64,000 bases of DNA from Mesorhizobium sp. J8 (lineage in GTDB: Bacteria; Pseudomonadota; Alphaproteobacteria; Rhizobiales; Rhizobiaceae). Below the pieces are notes generated by a model. The model searched no databases, had not been told where the DNA came from, and was given only the letters and a program-made list of their open reading frames with translations. Location of the stretch: NCBI RefSeq assembly GCF_016591715.1, contig NZ_AP024109.1, positions 434,001 through 498,000 on the forward strand, in the 5' to 3' direction. Below, in pieces: positions 23,440-43,360 of the stretch (the first letter of the stretch is position 1; each line of letters starts with the position of its first letter). The translations under genes and the position numbers were made by a program.

Positions 23440-24903
23440 CTAGGCAGCCATCAGCTGCTTGACCTTCCGCATATCCTTCAAGAACCGCTCCCGCTCCGCC
23501 TCCTTGTCCTCCTGCTCGCGGATGCGCAGGATGAAGGATGGGTGGATGGTCAGGAACACGCGCAAGCCGTCCTCGCGCTGGATAACGTCGCCGCGCATCT
23601 TGGTGATCGGCACCGCTTTGCCGAGCAGCGACTGCGCCGCCGTCGCGCCGAGCGCCACCACGAGGTTTGGCTTGATCAGGTCGAGCTCCTTGTCCAGCCA
23701 CCAGCGGCAGGCCTGGATCTCGCCGGCATTGGGCTTGGAATGGATGCGCCTTTTGCCGCGCGGCTCGAATTTGAAATGTTTCACCGCGTTGGTCACATAG
23801 ACCTTGCGGCGGTCGATTTCGGCGTCGTCCAAAATGCTGTCGAATATTCTGCCCGCCGGACCGACAAAGGGCTTGCCGGCCAGATCCTCCTGGTCGCCCG
23901 GCTGTTCGCCAACGAAGACCACGTCGGCATTTTCCGGTCCCTCGCCGAACACCGTTTGCGTGGCATCGCGCCAGAGCGGGCAGCGGCGGCAGCCTTTCGC
24001 CTCCTCGCGCAACTCCGGAATATCTTCGGCTTCAGGCGCAACAACATCGGACGGCCCGGGCGTTGGCCAGTGCTTGGCCTTCACCTTGGCGTGGTGCGGG
24101 GCTGGGGTGGTTGGCATCCGGTCGATCATGGCTGACGCAGCCTTGTCCGCTCCTGCTATCAAATCTGGAATGAGCGAGGCCTCCGGAAGGTTCCGCCAAT
24201 ATTTCTTCGGCATCTCCCTCTGCATCGCCTTCACCTTGAGGCGAGCCGGGTTGAAGATGTTTTCGAAATAGGTTCGCCACAGCGCCTCGGCGTCATCCTC
24301 GGCTGGTGCGTCGCGCTTGCCGGCTCCCGGGCCGATTGCCAGCCGCTCGCCGTTCCAGTCGGCGGAAGCGTGCGGCGAGAGTATCGTCCAGCGCATGCCG
24401 GTGAAGCGGCGCACGAAGAAATCGGCATTGCGCTCGACGATGAAATGGTCGGGCTCGAACCACGCGACATAGCGCTCGTCCGTGCCTTCGCCGATCTTCC
24501 GGAAGCGCACGAAGGCGCGCATCTTGTGGATATCGCGGTGGACCGCCTTCTCCATTGCCTCCAGCTTGCGGATATCCGGATCGGAAGCGATCGAGAGCAA
24601 CATCGGCTCAGAACGCAGCCGCCAGAGCAGCCGATAAAGAAAGCCGAAGCGCTCGGGGTCGCAATGGCAGATGACCGTCTCGGCCCGATCGATGAAGTCG
24701 CGCGGAACGACAAGGCGAGCATCGGGCTTCGCGGCCGGCAAATCATCGACCCGGCATTCACTATCCGGGACCTGCCATGCGACGCTTTCCGGCCTTATGT
24801 CGTTCGTCGCCAACCGGCGCGCCGCGTCGCGCCAGCCGGCAAAATCGGTTTCGCTGTCGAGCCGGACGAGATGGGTGGCGAGGTTGAGTTGAGTGCTTGC
24901 CAT
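23440..24903 (-). CDS. DUF4130 domain fused to UdgX-type uracil-DNA glycosylase
   Basis: This 487-residue two-domain protein has, at about 60-250, the DUF4130 region seen in proteins linked to a radical-SAM partner (FLYRLLWRLRSEP, then RDIHKMRAFVRFR). Residues about 295-487 are a uracil-DNA glycosylase-superfamily domain with motif GEQPGDQED (332-340) and the UdgX loop KRRIH (384-388). In characterised UdgX that His bonds covalently to the deoxyribose after uracil removal. Fe-S ligands appear as C305, C308 and C399, with H376 (VKHFKF) where family-4 enzymes have Cys. It starts 2 bp after the radical-SAM stop, so the two are coupled. Confidence 0.93.
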   Translation of the reverse strand: MASTQLNLATHLVRLDSETDFAGWRDAARRLATNDIRPESVAWQVPDSECRVDDLPAAKPDARLVVPRDFIDRAETVICHCDPERFGFLYRLLWRLRSEPMLLSIASDPDIRKLEAMEKAVHRDIHKMRAFVRFRKIGEGTDERYVAWFEPDHFIVERNADFFVRRFTGMRWTILSPHASADWNGERLAIGPGAGKRDAPAEDDAEALWRTYFENIFNPARLKVKAMQREMPKKYWRNLPEASLIPDLIAGADKAASAMIDRMPTTPAPHHAKVKAKHWPTPGPSDVVAPEAEDIPELREEAKGCRRCPLWRDATQTVFGEGPENADVVFVGEQPGDQEDLAGKPFVGPAGRIFDSILDDAEIDRRKVYVTNAVKHFKFEPRGKRRIHSKPNAGEIQACRWWLDKELDLIKPNLVVALGATAAQSLLGKAVPITKMRGDVIQREDGLRVFLTIHPSFILRIREQEDKEAERERFLKDMRKVKQLMAA

Positions 24904-24905
24904 GG

Positions 24906-26141
24906 TCAGAACAACGAAAGCTGCTCGCAGGAGCGGGTGATCGCCTGGCGCAGGCCGGCCTTGTCGGTCAGCGCGCCCGGCGACCAGCCTTCCGCGACGA
25001 TGAAGGGCCGCACCTTGGCGACCGAATTGCAGAGGCGTCCGAGATCCTCCAGCCGCAGCCGCCGGTAACGGCGTGTCTCGATGATCCTGTCGACCACCTT
25101 GGCACCGAGGCCGGGAACGCGCAGCAGGGCTTCGCGCTCGGCGCGATTGACGTCGACCGGAAACCGGCCGCGATTGCGCAGCGCCCAGGCAAGCTTGGGG
25201 TCGATGGCAAGGTCGAGCATGCCGTCGCTGCTCCCGGCCAGGATCTCCGGCTGCGAGAAGCCGTAAAACCGCATCAGCCAGTCGGCCTGGTAGAGCCGGT
25301 GCTCACGCATCAGCGGCGGCCTGCGCAATGGCAGCGCCGAAGACGAATCGGGGATCGGGCTGAAGGCGGAATAGTAGACGCGGCGCAAATGATAGCTGCC
25401 ATAGAGCCGGGCGCTGGCGCGCAAGATGCCGTCGTCGGATGTCTTGTCCGCGCCGACGATCATCTGCGTCGATTGGCCTCCCGGCGCGAAACGCTCCCGC
25501 CTGCGGCTCTGCATTGTCGGCTCGGCTTTTTCCTCGATCTTGCGGCGCAGCTTGGCCATCGATAACCGGATCGTTTCCGGCTTCTTCTCCGGCGCCAGCT
25601 TCTTCACGCTCTCGTCGGTCGGCAATTCGACATTGATCGACAGCCGGTCGGCATAGAAACCGGCCCTTTCGATCAGCTCGGCCGACGCTTCGGGAATGGT
25701 TTTCAGGTGAATATAGCCGCCGAATTTTTCCTCGATCCTGAGCCGCCGCGCCACCTCCACCATCTCGCCCATCGTCTCGTCCGGCGAGCGGATGACGCCT
25801 GACGACAGGAACAGTCCCTCGATGTAGTTACGGCGATAGAAATCCATGGTGAGCTTCACCACCTCCTCGACGGCGAAGCGAGCGCGCCGCACATTCGAGG
25901 ACGAGCGGTTGATGCAATAGCTGCAATCGTAGATGCAGAAATTGGTCAGCAGGATTTTGAGCAGCGAAATGCAGCGCCCGTCCGGCGCGTAGGAATGGCA
26001 GATGCCGGAACCCTCGGTCGAGCCGATGCCCCCCGATCTCAGCGAGTCGCGTTTCGTCGATCCAGACGATGCGCAGGAGGCGTCGTATTTGGCGGCATCG
26101 GACAGGATCGCCAGTTTTTCGCGGACGGAAAGCACAGCCAT
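24906..26141 (-). CDS. Radical-SAM protein of the UdgX-linked putative DNA repair/modification family
   Basis: This 411-residue protein has the radical-SAM cluster motif C69-X3-C73-X2-C76 (CIYDCSYC). Extra conserved cysteines occur before it (C23 in YDASCASSGS, C48, C57). The C-terminal region near 335-375 (LRVPGLGAKVVDRII) is a helix-hairpin-helix, a DNA-backbone-binding element. Members of this family are known as neighbours of UdgX and DUF4130 proteins, and no reaction has been established as far as I know. The start matches the family N-terminus (REKLAILSDAAKYD). A LexA box lies immediately upstream. Confidence 0.92.
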   Translation of the reverse strand: MAVLSVREKLAILSDAAKYDASCASSGSTKRDSLRSGGIGSTEGSGICHSYAPDGRCISLLKILLTNFCIYDCSYCINRSSSNVRRARFAVEEVVKLTMDFYRRNYIEGLFLSSGVIRSPDETMGEMVEVARRLRIEEKFGGYIHLKTIPEASAELIERAGFYADRLSINVELPTDESVKKLAPEKKPETIRLSMAKLRRKIEEKAEPTMQSRRRERFAPGGQSTQMIVGADKTSDDGILRASARLYGSYHLRRVYYSAFSPIPDSSSALPLRRPPLMREHRLYQADWLMRFYGFSQPEILAGSSDGMLDLAIDPKLAWALRNRGRFPVDVNRAEREALLRVPGLGAKVVDRIIETRRYRRLRLEDLGRLCNSVAKVRPFIVAEGWSPGALTDKAGLRQAITRSCEQLSLF

Positions 26142-26143
26142 TT

Positions 26144-26158
26144 GTTCATGATATGTTC
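26144..26158. promoter_or_regulatory. LexA (SOS) box, alphaproteobacterial GTTC-N7-GTTC
   Basis: The plus strand reads GTTCATGATATGTTC, that is GTTC (26144-26147), seven bases, GTTC (26155-26158), a perfect match to the alphaproteobacterial LexA direct repeat. It starts 2 bp upstream of the radical-SAM start codon. TATAGC on the minus strand (26172-26177) could be a -10 element, which would place the box at the transcription start, a repressing position. Only the box itself is certain; its function is inferred. Confidence 0.75.
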
Positions 26159-41560: not shown

Positions 41561-43360
41561 TCAATTGAAACTCGGCGGCTTCGAAAGGTCGGGCGCCGGC
41601 GTCGCCGGCTTGGCAGGCGTGGTGTCGCCGAAATTCGGCGGCTGTGACAGATCGGGCGTGCCGGGCGCGGCAGGGGCGGGGGCGCCGCCATTGGCCGGAG
41701 CCGCGCCATTGTCCGCCGGCGGCGTGCCGAGCGGCGACAGCGACGGCATGTCGGGCAGCTTGAGATCGATCGTGCTGGGCTCCACCACGGCGCCCTTGTA
41801 GCGCATCACCATCTGCGGGAAGGCGATGGTGAGCCCGATCATGATCACCTGGATCAGGACGAACGGCACGGCGCCCCAATAGATCTGCCCGGTGGTAACA
41901 GGCGCGATCTGCTTCCCGGTGATTCGATCGAGATAAGGCACGCGAGCCGCGACCGAACGCAGGTAGAACAGCGCGAAGCCGAAGGGCGGATGCATGAAGC
42001 TGGTCTGCATGTTGACGCCGAGCAGCACGCCGAACCAGATCAGGTCGATGCCGAGCTTGTCGGCGGCAGGCGCCAGAAGCGGCACGATGATGAAGGCGAG
42101 CTCGAAGAAATCGAGGAAGAAGGCGAGCACGAAGACCAGGATGTTGACGCCGATCAGGAAGCCTGTCTCGCCGCCGGGCAGCGAGGTCAACAGGTGCTCG
42201 ACCCAGATATGGCCGTTGACGCCGTAGAAGGTGAGCGAAAAGACGCGCGCGCCGATCAGGATGAACAGCACGAAGGAGGAAAGCCTGGTCGTCGAGGCCA
42301 GTGCCTGGTTGACGACTTCCCTCGTCAGGCGGCCTTTCATCGCCGCCATGATGAGCGCGCCGACAGCGCCCATGGCGCCGCCTTCGGTCGGCGTGGCGAT
42401 GCCGAGGAAGATCGTGCCCAGCACCAGGAAGATCAGTGCCAGCGGCGGGATCAGCACGATCACCACCTGCTGCGCCAGCTTGGACATCATGTTGATGCGG
42501 AGCCGCTGATCGACGATGGCAACGACATAGATGACGATGACGCCGACGGCGAAGCCGAGGATGTCGGCGTTGTCGCCGTGCGTCGGCGCGAGATAGCGAT
42601 AGGCGCCGTAGGAGATGGCGCCGGTGATGAGCAGCGCCACGATCAGCGACAGCACGCCGTGGCCGAGCGTGCGGGCTTCGAGCGGCAGCGCCGGCATCGA
42701 GTTCGGCCGGACGATCGACATGATCAGGATATAGAGCATGTAGATGCCGGTCAGCACGAGGCCGGGGATCAGCGCGCCGGCATACATGTCGCCGACCGAG
42801 CGTCCGAGCTGGTCGGCAAGCACGATCAGCACCAGCGACGGCGGGATGATCTGGGCGAGCGTGCCGGAGGCGGCGATGACACCGGACGCCAGCCTGCGGT
42901 CATAGCCGTAACGCAGCATGATCGGCAGCGAGATCAGCCCCATGGCGATGACGGAGGCGGCGACCACGCCGGTCGTGGCGGCAAGCAGCGCGCCGACGAA
43001 GATCACGGCATAGGCAAGCCCGCCGCGGATCGGCCCGAACAGCTGGCCGATCGTGTCGAGCAGGTCCTCGGCCATGCCGGAGCGTTCGAGCACGATGCCC
43101 ATGAAGGTGAAGAAGGGTATCGCCAGGAGCGTGTCGTTCGACATCACCCTGGTGCCGTAGAAATTGTCGGGCAGCGCATGCAGCAGCGGCCAGGCAAGGT
43201 TGATCGACCCGCCGGAATAGGGCGAGACCAGCACGCCGATGAAGAAGAACAGCAAGCCATTTGCGGCGAGCGAGAAGGCGACGGGATAGCCGATCAACAG
43301 GAAGACGATCAGCGAGGCGAACATGATCGGCGCCATGTTCTGCGCGATGAATTCGATCAT
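41561..43360 (-). CDS. TRAP transporter large permease, DctM family, with low-complexity C-terminal tail
   Basis: This 599-residue inner-membrane permease is longer than the usual DctM of about 430. The N-terminal 530 residues carry the family helices and motifs (VAFSLAANGLLFFFIGV near 28, IPFFTFMGIVLERSGMAEDLL near 82, ATPTEGGAMGAVGAL near 325, and the FFLDFFELAFIIVPLLAP segment near 415). The extra length is an insert near 210-290 and a Pro/Ala/Gly tail from about 538, in which PDLSQPPNF and PDLSKPPSF recur. The start overlaps the dctQ stop (ATGA). Confidence 0.92.
   Translation of the reverse strand: MIEFIAQNMAPIMFASLIVFLLIGYPVAFSLAANGLLFFFIGVLVSPYSGGSINLAWPLLHALPDNFYGTRVMSNDTLLAIPFFTFMGIVLERSGMAEDLLDTIGQLFGPIRGGLAYAVIFVGALLAATTGVVAASVIAMGLISLPIMLRYGYDRRLASGVIAASGTLAQIIPPSLVLIVLADQLGRSVGDMYAGALIPGLVLTGIYMLYILIMSIVRPNSMPALPLEARTLGHGVLSLIVALLITGAISYGAYRYLAPTHGDNADILGFAVGVIVIYVVAIVDQRLRINMMSKLAQQVVIVLIPPLALIFLVLGTIFLGIATPTEGGAMGAVGALIMAAMKGRLTREVVNQALASTTRLSSFVLFILIGARVFSLTFYGVNGHIWVEHLLTSLPGGETGFLIGVNILVFVLAFFLDFFELAFIIVPLLAPAADKLGIDLIWFGVLLGVNMQTSFMHPPFGFALFYLRSVAARVPYLDRITGKQIAPVTTGQIYWGAVPFVLIQVIMIGLTIAFPQMVMRYKGAVVEPSTIDLKLPDMPSLSPLGTPPADNGAAPANGGAPAPAAPGTPDLSQPPNFGDTTPAKPATPAPDLSKPPSFN

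Follow-up and report, generated by a model that had tools for sequence, protein, structure and literature searches.

The window analysed here, a stretch of 64,000 nucleotides from Mesorhizobium sp. J8 (contig NZ_AP024109.1, positions 434,001 to 498,000; source genome of 6.69 Mb in one contig, with Mesorhizobium as the origin of the nearest named database proteins), contains a two-gene operon on its minus strand that encodes a radical S-adenosylmethionine (SAM) protein and a fusion of DUF4130 with the uracil-DNA glycosylase (UDG) UdgX. Comparing the sequences of related loci, we find that the core of this type of operon is the radical-SAM protein together with DUF4130 and that UdgX is an accessory, because DUF4130 is constant while UdgX is absent from many loci and genomes. 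We hypothesize, with evenly balanced confidence, that the operon is induced by the SOS response and processes DNA lesions, with the radical-SAM protein as the catalyst, DUF4130 as its partner and UdgX as an added component. The window operon is itself a typical member of its family, which occurs widely and is functionally unsolved.

The first gene (24906-26141, minus strand) encodes a protein of 411 residues that matches TIGR03916 (rSAM_link_UDG) with 569.1 bits (cut-off 343.5) and the Pfam family Radical_SAM (PF04055) with 43.9 bits (cut-off 29.5). The second (23440-24903, minus strand) follows after a gap of 2 bp and encodes 487 residues, of which 1-242 form the DUF4130 domain (24178-24903; TIGR03915, 205 bits, cut-off 112.25; PF13566, score 135.8, cut-off 27) and 244-481 the UdgX domain (23461-24174; TIGR03914, 330.5 bits, cut-off 189.95). 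Pfam agrees on the Radical_SAM, DUF4130 and UDG assignments, so that the open reading frames (ORFs) and the NCBIfam and Pfam scores confirm the adjacent radical-SAM and DUF4130-UdgX genes of the original prediction.

We compared 136 loci; 44 carry the UdgX fusion and 92 have no UdgX nearby, a mixture that reflects our sampling. Outside the Alphaproteobacteria, the set includes the 80 top-ranked of 592 confirmed loci in named genomes, the ranking being by likeness to an Acetoanaerobium protein; these are mostly from Clostridia, with some from Bacilli, Hymenobacter, Geobacter and others. A scan with home-made profiles (E-values up to 1e-4) detected DUF4130 in the fetched stretch of 77 of these 80 loci and UdgX in none. 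By the start codons chosen, DUF4130 starts no more than about 200 bp from the radical-SAM gene in 66 of the 77 loci, and in the others at distances of up to 1.9 kb. Two of the 77 DUF4130 genes, in L063 and L081, look broken or cut. The three loci with no DUF4130 in the stretch (L071, L087, L094) have it on another contig of the genome. UdgX was also searched for in 25 of these non-alphaproteobacterial genomes, selected by us (six metagenome-assembled by title, the rest isolates or strains); a match over the cut-off, unlinked to the operon, was found in one of them, and ten others gave sub-cut-off matches only.

Within the Alphaproteobacteria we took all TIGR03916 loci over the cut-off from an order sample (33 loci in 150 genomes, the window's included) and a class sample (17 loci in 241 genomes, two of them already in the order set), 48 loci in total. 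The fusion is found in 41, and the other seven have DUF4130 alone; UdgX is encoded elsewhere, over the cut-off, in two of these seven genomes and is lacking from five. In a tree of the radical-SAM proteins the fused rows do not form one clade (approximately unbiased test, p-AU 1e-5, for a group chosen after inspecting a quick tree), and the distribution implies four changes, three of them forced. The careful tree has fewer rows; in it, the unfused alphaproteobacterial rows, except L039, nest among fused ones; the simplest reading of this pattern is that UdgX has been lost repeatedly. Across the 150 order genomes, radical-SAM and DUF4130 matches over the cut-off occur in exactly the same 33, a co-occurrence partly explained by adjacency, of which the three unlinked cases mentioned above are independent.

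A LexA-type box, GAAC-N7-GAAC on the minus strand (GTTCATGATATGTTC on the plus strand), occupies 26144-26158 and ends 2 bp before the ATG of the radical-SAM gene, exactly the perfect GTTC-N7-GTTC that had been predicted directly before the first start. Bare motif counts were dropped as evidence: the window holds two copies with 1.76 expected, and the genome holds 134 as compared with 177 of the reversed pattern. The other perfect copy in the window, at 41955-41969 on the minus strand, is expected by chance. The box is more than chance because of its position upstream of the gene, not because of its count. A box lies within 150 bp upstream of the start in 46 of the 48 alphaproteobacterial loci, where about 0.13 would be expected in 48 such stretches at the genome's own density; 43 are oriented as in the window and three in the opposite direction. 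The two loci lacking a perfect box are L019, which has a one-mismatch copy, and L039. Six of the seven unfused loci keep the box. In the order set the spacing is 7 in 32 of 33 loci, and each other spacing from N0 to N15 is found in at most one. L011, L014 and L016 have the box reversed and farther upstream (-97, -96 and -52), with a 15-mer identical to the plus strand of the window.

The original prediction would have been undermined had close relatives lacked the box. A TIGR03916 gene over the cut-off is present in 51 of 119 sampled genomes of the same genus, and in all 29 loci that we examined among the other 50 the box stands at -16 or -17. The test therefore holds where the operon exists, while more than half of the sampled genus is without the gene. 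In the same genome as the window operon, lexA has a perfect box 61 bp upstream of the point where the match to the LexA domain begins (by chance, that locus would hold 0.08), and recA has a one-mismatch box 58 bp before its ATG; the recA locus holds three one-mismatch boxes against 3.35 expected, so this observation alone is not beyond chance. With a GTTC-N7-GTTC near the start that is conserved in relatives, the operon has the marks of the LexA (SOS) regulon of Alphaproteobacteria.

The 80 non-alphaproteobacterial loci provide an independent test; only one of them has the alphaproteobacterial box. GAAC-N4-GTTC, which we take to be the Gram-positive LexA box, is found within 150 bp upstream in 31 loci by a strict pattern and in 46 by a relaxed one (shuffle means 0.13 and 0.43, respectively); other spacings from 0 to 11 gave no strict match and at most six relaxed ones. 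Even the relaxed pattern is absent within 200 bp in 33 of the 80. Because the motif is GAAC-N7-GAAC in Alphaproteobacteria and GAAC-N4-GTTC in the other loci, the radical-SAM gene, judged from these motifs, has a LexA-type box in each of two distinct LexA dialects, and the operon is very probably switched on by DNA damage via LexA. The proposal of SOS control and a role in DNA damage is supported by this conservation, and is not new.

The radical-SAM motif CX3CX2C (C69, C73 and C76; 25914-25937, minus strand) is present in all 67 aligned proteins, and CX3CX2C occurs somewhere in all 136 ORFs. Upstream of it, residues 23-57 (25971-26075, minus strand) contain further residues, C23, C48-H49 and C57, that are invariant in the 67 aligned proteins, and the complete six-cysteine pattern was recovered in 135 of 136 loci. 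For the Cys-His pair C48-H49, L056 is the one exception among the nine rows failing a looser pattern; a single PGxG pattern was missed in three rows of the 136 ORFs. C23, C48 and C57 may hold a second Fe-S cluster. The helix-hairpin-helix that had been predicted for this protein fares less clearly: the C-terminal region concerned (residues 313-358; 25068-25205, minus strand) has weak sequence matches in the Protein Data Bank, to a ComEA-related chain and to chains of RuvA, but its Pfam scores of 23.7 and 23.8 fall below the cut-off of 27. The best folds for the predicted model are HydE, lipoyl synthase and biotin synthase, with 10-18% identity in the aligned part; the window protein differs from all three by its helix-hairpin-helix C-terminus, its cysteine layout and its control by DNA damage.

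The predicted model of DUF4130 (md69a266adb62; predicted local distance difference test score 86.8) aligns with RecJ, Cdc45 and DHH phosphoesterases over residues 5-201. Unlike these, DUF4130 has no DHH-type Asp/His motif at the sites on which at least 75% of 65 aligned sequences agree, the few invariant residues being R, F and E. Nor were profile comparisons significant, either with RecJ (local E 0.15 versus 0.64 for the reversed profile) or with NrnA (E 0.79 versus 0.48 reversed), the positive control of the comparison, RecJ with NrnA, standing at 95%; a search of solved structures by sequence gave a single match, at E 0.9. DUF4130 is perhaps, on this tentative structural likeness, a non-catalytic RecJ/Cdc45-like nucleic-acid-binding module.

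The UdgX domain, in addition to its TIGR03914 match, has the GEQPG, KRRIH-loop and HPS motifs that it shares with 6ail and related UdgX. Alignment to 6ail places the R-loop KRRIH at residues 384-388 (23740-23754, minus strand), and its histidine, which is presumably the cross-linking residue, keeps its position in each of the 44 distinct UdgX sequences from the loci scanned (49 entries with duplicates); an HPSxxLR pattern was missed in five of the 44. The solved UdgX chains listed, which we take to be from Mycobacterium smegmatis, have 205-229 residues and no DUF4130, whereas the UdgX of the window is fused behind DUF4130 in an operon with a radical-SAM gene. The R-loop is named in PMC10359453. 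In PHROGs only the UdgX part was matched, to a phage DNA polymerase family (E 1e-5).

We propose that LexA bound at 26144-26158 would repress the operon until DNA is damaged. The radical-SAM protein would then split SAM at its CX3CX2C cluster, probably using the putative second cluster as well, with the helix-hairpin-helix part tethering it to DNA and the 5'-deoxyadenosyl radical taking a hydrogen atom from a damaged nucleotide. DUF4130 may present single-stranded or gapped DNA, and the fused UdgX would find uracil and cap the resulting abasic site, generally without being the target of the radical chemistry. A chemical lesion is more probable than a UV (ultraviolet) dimer alone, because many of the non-alphaproteobacterial carriers, going by their record titles, belong to Lachnospiraceae, Oscillospiraceae and other anaerobes of the gut type; sediment anaerobes are also among them. 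A bolder form of this proposal, which we consider less likely than not, is that radical-SAM and DUF4130 constitute an uncharacterised type of DNA repair, SOS-induced across several phyla, in which a two-cluster enzyme receives single-stranded or gapped DNA from an inactivated RecJ/Cdc45-like partner; Proteobacteria would have added a covalent uracil trap by repeated fusion, or have discarded it repeatedly. An accessory role for UdgX is at odds with PMC8565304, which places a UDG in the Bacteroidetes operon, and a UV lesion would be favoured by Heliobacterium chlorum, in which a class II photolyase-type gene (L071, 5730-7019) lies downstream of the radical-SAM gene. In our set, six Bacteroidota loci (L053, L077, L117, L124, L128, L132) have DUF4130 and no UdgX, and no UdgX match was found anywhere in the four Bacteroidota genomes searched.

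That UDG would also favour a role in which the radical-SAM enzyme acts on the covalent adduct of UdgX with DNA, to release or process it, as originally suggested, and so would the two-gene operon, the intact KRRIH loop of the fused UdgX and the invariance of the loop histidine. As a general function, however, adduct processing is refuted by the loci and genomes without UdgX: it is missing near the 92 loci described above, all 80 non-alphaproteobacterial ones included, and most of the UdgX-less genomes checked, among them five of the seven with DUF4130 alone, do not encode it elsewhere. Since the fused rows also do not form one clade, we consider this role very improbable. Direct reversal of a pyrimidine photoproduct by an enzyme resembling spore-photoproduct lyase is unlikely. 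DUF4130 is described in PMC3765255 as a predicted mutagenesis-related enzyme tied to SplB-like radical-SAM photolyases and UDGs that might modify thymines, and the Heliobacterium photolyase gene points the same way; against this, the 11 NCBIfam matches (E up to 0.1) do not include the spore-photoproduct-lyase family (no direct comparison with the lyase was made), the best folds are of other enzymes, and many carriers are by title gut or sediment anaerobes.

The lipoyl synthase matches take in the N-terminal region (model 5-291), and Foldseek also lists MiaB and RimO as matches; together with the three extra conserved N-terminal cysteines, these could indicate insertion of sulfur or another group into a base, as a DNA or RNA mark made at the time of the SOS response. 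Lipoyl synthase has the motif CX4CX5C, from which the cysteine spacing here differs, the cysteine stretch of the model is poorly modelled, and the operon has two genes, no third having recurred among the neighbours scanned elsewhere; we rate base modification as rather unlikely. It is quite improbable, in our estimation, that the enzyme modifies a protein, either DUF4130 or another DNA-bound one, instead of DNA. Such activity would suit its strict co-occurrence with the fast-evolving DUF4130 and the weaker fold matches, which include pyruvate formate-lyase activase and enzymes that modify peptides, but it would not suit the helix-hairpin-helix part, and the invariant R, F and E of DUF4130 do not, in our judgement, resemble a modification site. 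No PADLOC family matched either operon protein at E up to 0.01, and we dropped an anti-phage defence system from consideration. Families not listed by VIA-align were not counted as excluded.

We take COG4277 to be the radical-SAM family of the window operon and a helix-hairpin-helix protein. All three of the linked families TIGR03916, TIGR03915 and TIGR03914 are matched by the window operon, with no difference seen, and its gene order is the same in plasmid records of Caballeronia, Phaeobacter and Rhizobium. PMC8565304 describes a COG1573-COG4277 operon under LexA in Bacteroidetes, citing the same control for Verrucomicrobia and Alphaproteobacteria (Erill 2016, Paes da Rocha 2008), and PMC3828012 predicts LexA control of CAC3343-CAC3344 in Clostridium acetobutylicum. 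Both resemble the window operon in pairing a radical-SAM or helix-hairpin-helix protein with a neighbour under LexA and differ from it in LexA motif. In the loci of Bacteroidota and Clostridia that we examined, the partner is a stand-alone DUF4130 without UdgX, unlike the fusion in the window. A radical-SAM gene of this kind is reported in PMC13130816 to rise in dry Acinetobacter, the same condition as for recA. The idea of regulation by LexA is right for the window operon and already known for its type; the present comparison adds the core/accessory split, the test of a second box, the cysteine pattern and the tentative DUF4130 fold. Our literature searches, whose coverage left out most subscription papers, found no paper on the reaction of the radical enzyme. 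To our knowledge, any DNA lesion apart from the spore photoproduct would be an unusual target for a radical enzyme. Operons of this type occur widely and are seen again and again under LexA, and the core/accessory split shifts the question from how a UdgX adduct is resolved to which lesion the radical enzyme acts on, for which UdgX-free systems are the simpler choice at the bench.

The search for a recurring third gene covered 56 neighbours (55 of 101 candidates, none from alphaproteobacterial loci, and one photolyase ORF); none was found, as no Pfam family, GGDEF and Cpn60 included, recurs in more than three of the 56 neighbours, and this candidate was dropped. Rad3/DinG-like helicase genes stand just downstream of the pair in L086 (2916-5276) and L126 (6213-8597), which are Faecalicatena and Blautia by title. 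Traces of decay were seen near the window species. G123, of the same genus, retains a short piece of DUF4130 interrupted by an in-frame stop (C1:5487547-5487696) and has no radical-SAM match, likely a remnant of operon loss; G046, of the same order, has a short radical-SAM relic with a stop (model 1-39; C1:4966150-4966266) and no DUF4130 listed over the cut-off. In G456, again of the same genus, the radical-SAM gene is in two overlapping pieces (C20:39637-40829), owing to a broken frame or an assembly error.

Some carriers may not be what their records are called. CAKLQH020000003.1 (L060), filed as 'Acinetobacter phage MD-2021a', has glyQ, glyS and other housekeeping genes flanking the pair and looks like a bacterial chromosome; NZ_CP084075.1, NZ_CP154629.1 and NZ_CP077849.1, of 2.1-3.7 Mb, are filed as plasmids and may be chromosomes. 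Phaeobacter accounts for 58 of the 158 matching plasmid records. On a plasmid of Phaeobacter inhibens (L058), genes for a cisplatin-response ligase and its exonuclease are found about 5 kb from the operon, with one for topoisomerase IB between, and these surroundings form a DNA-repair cluster.
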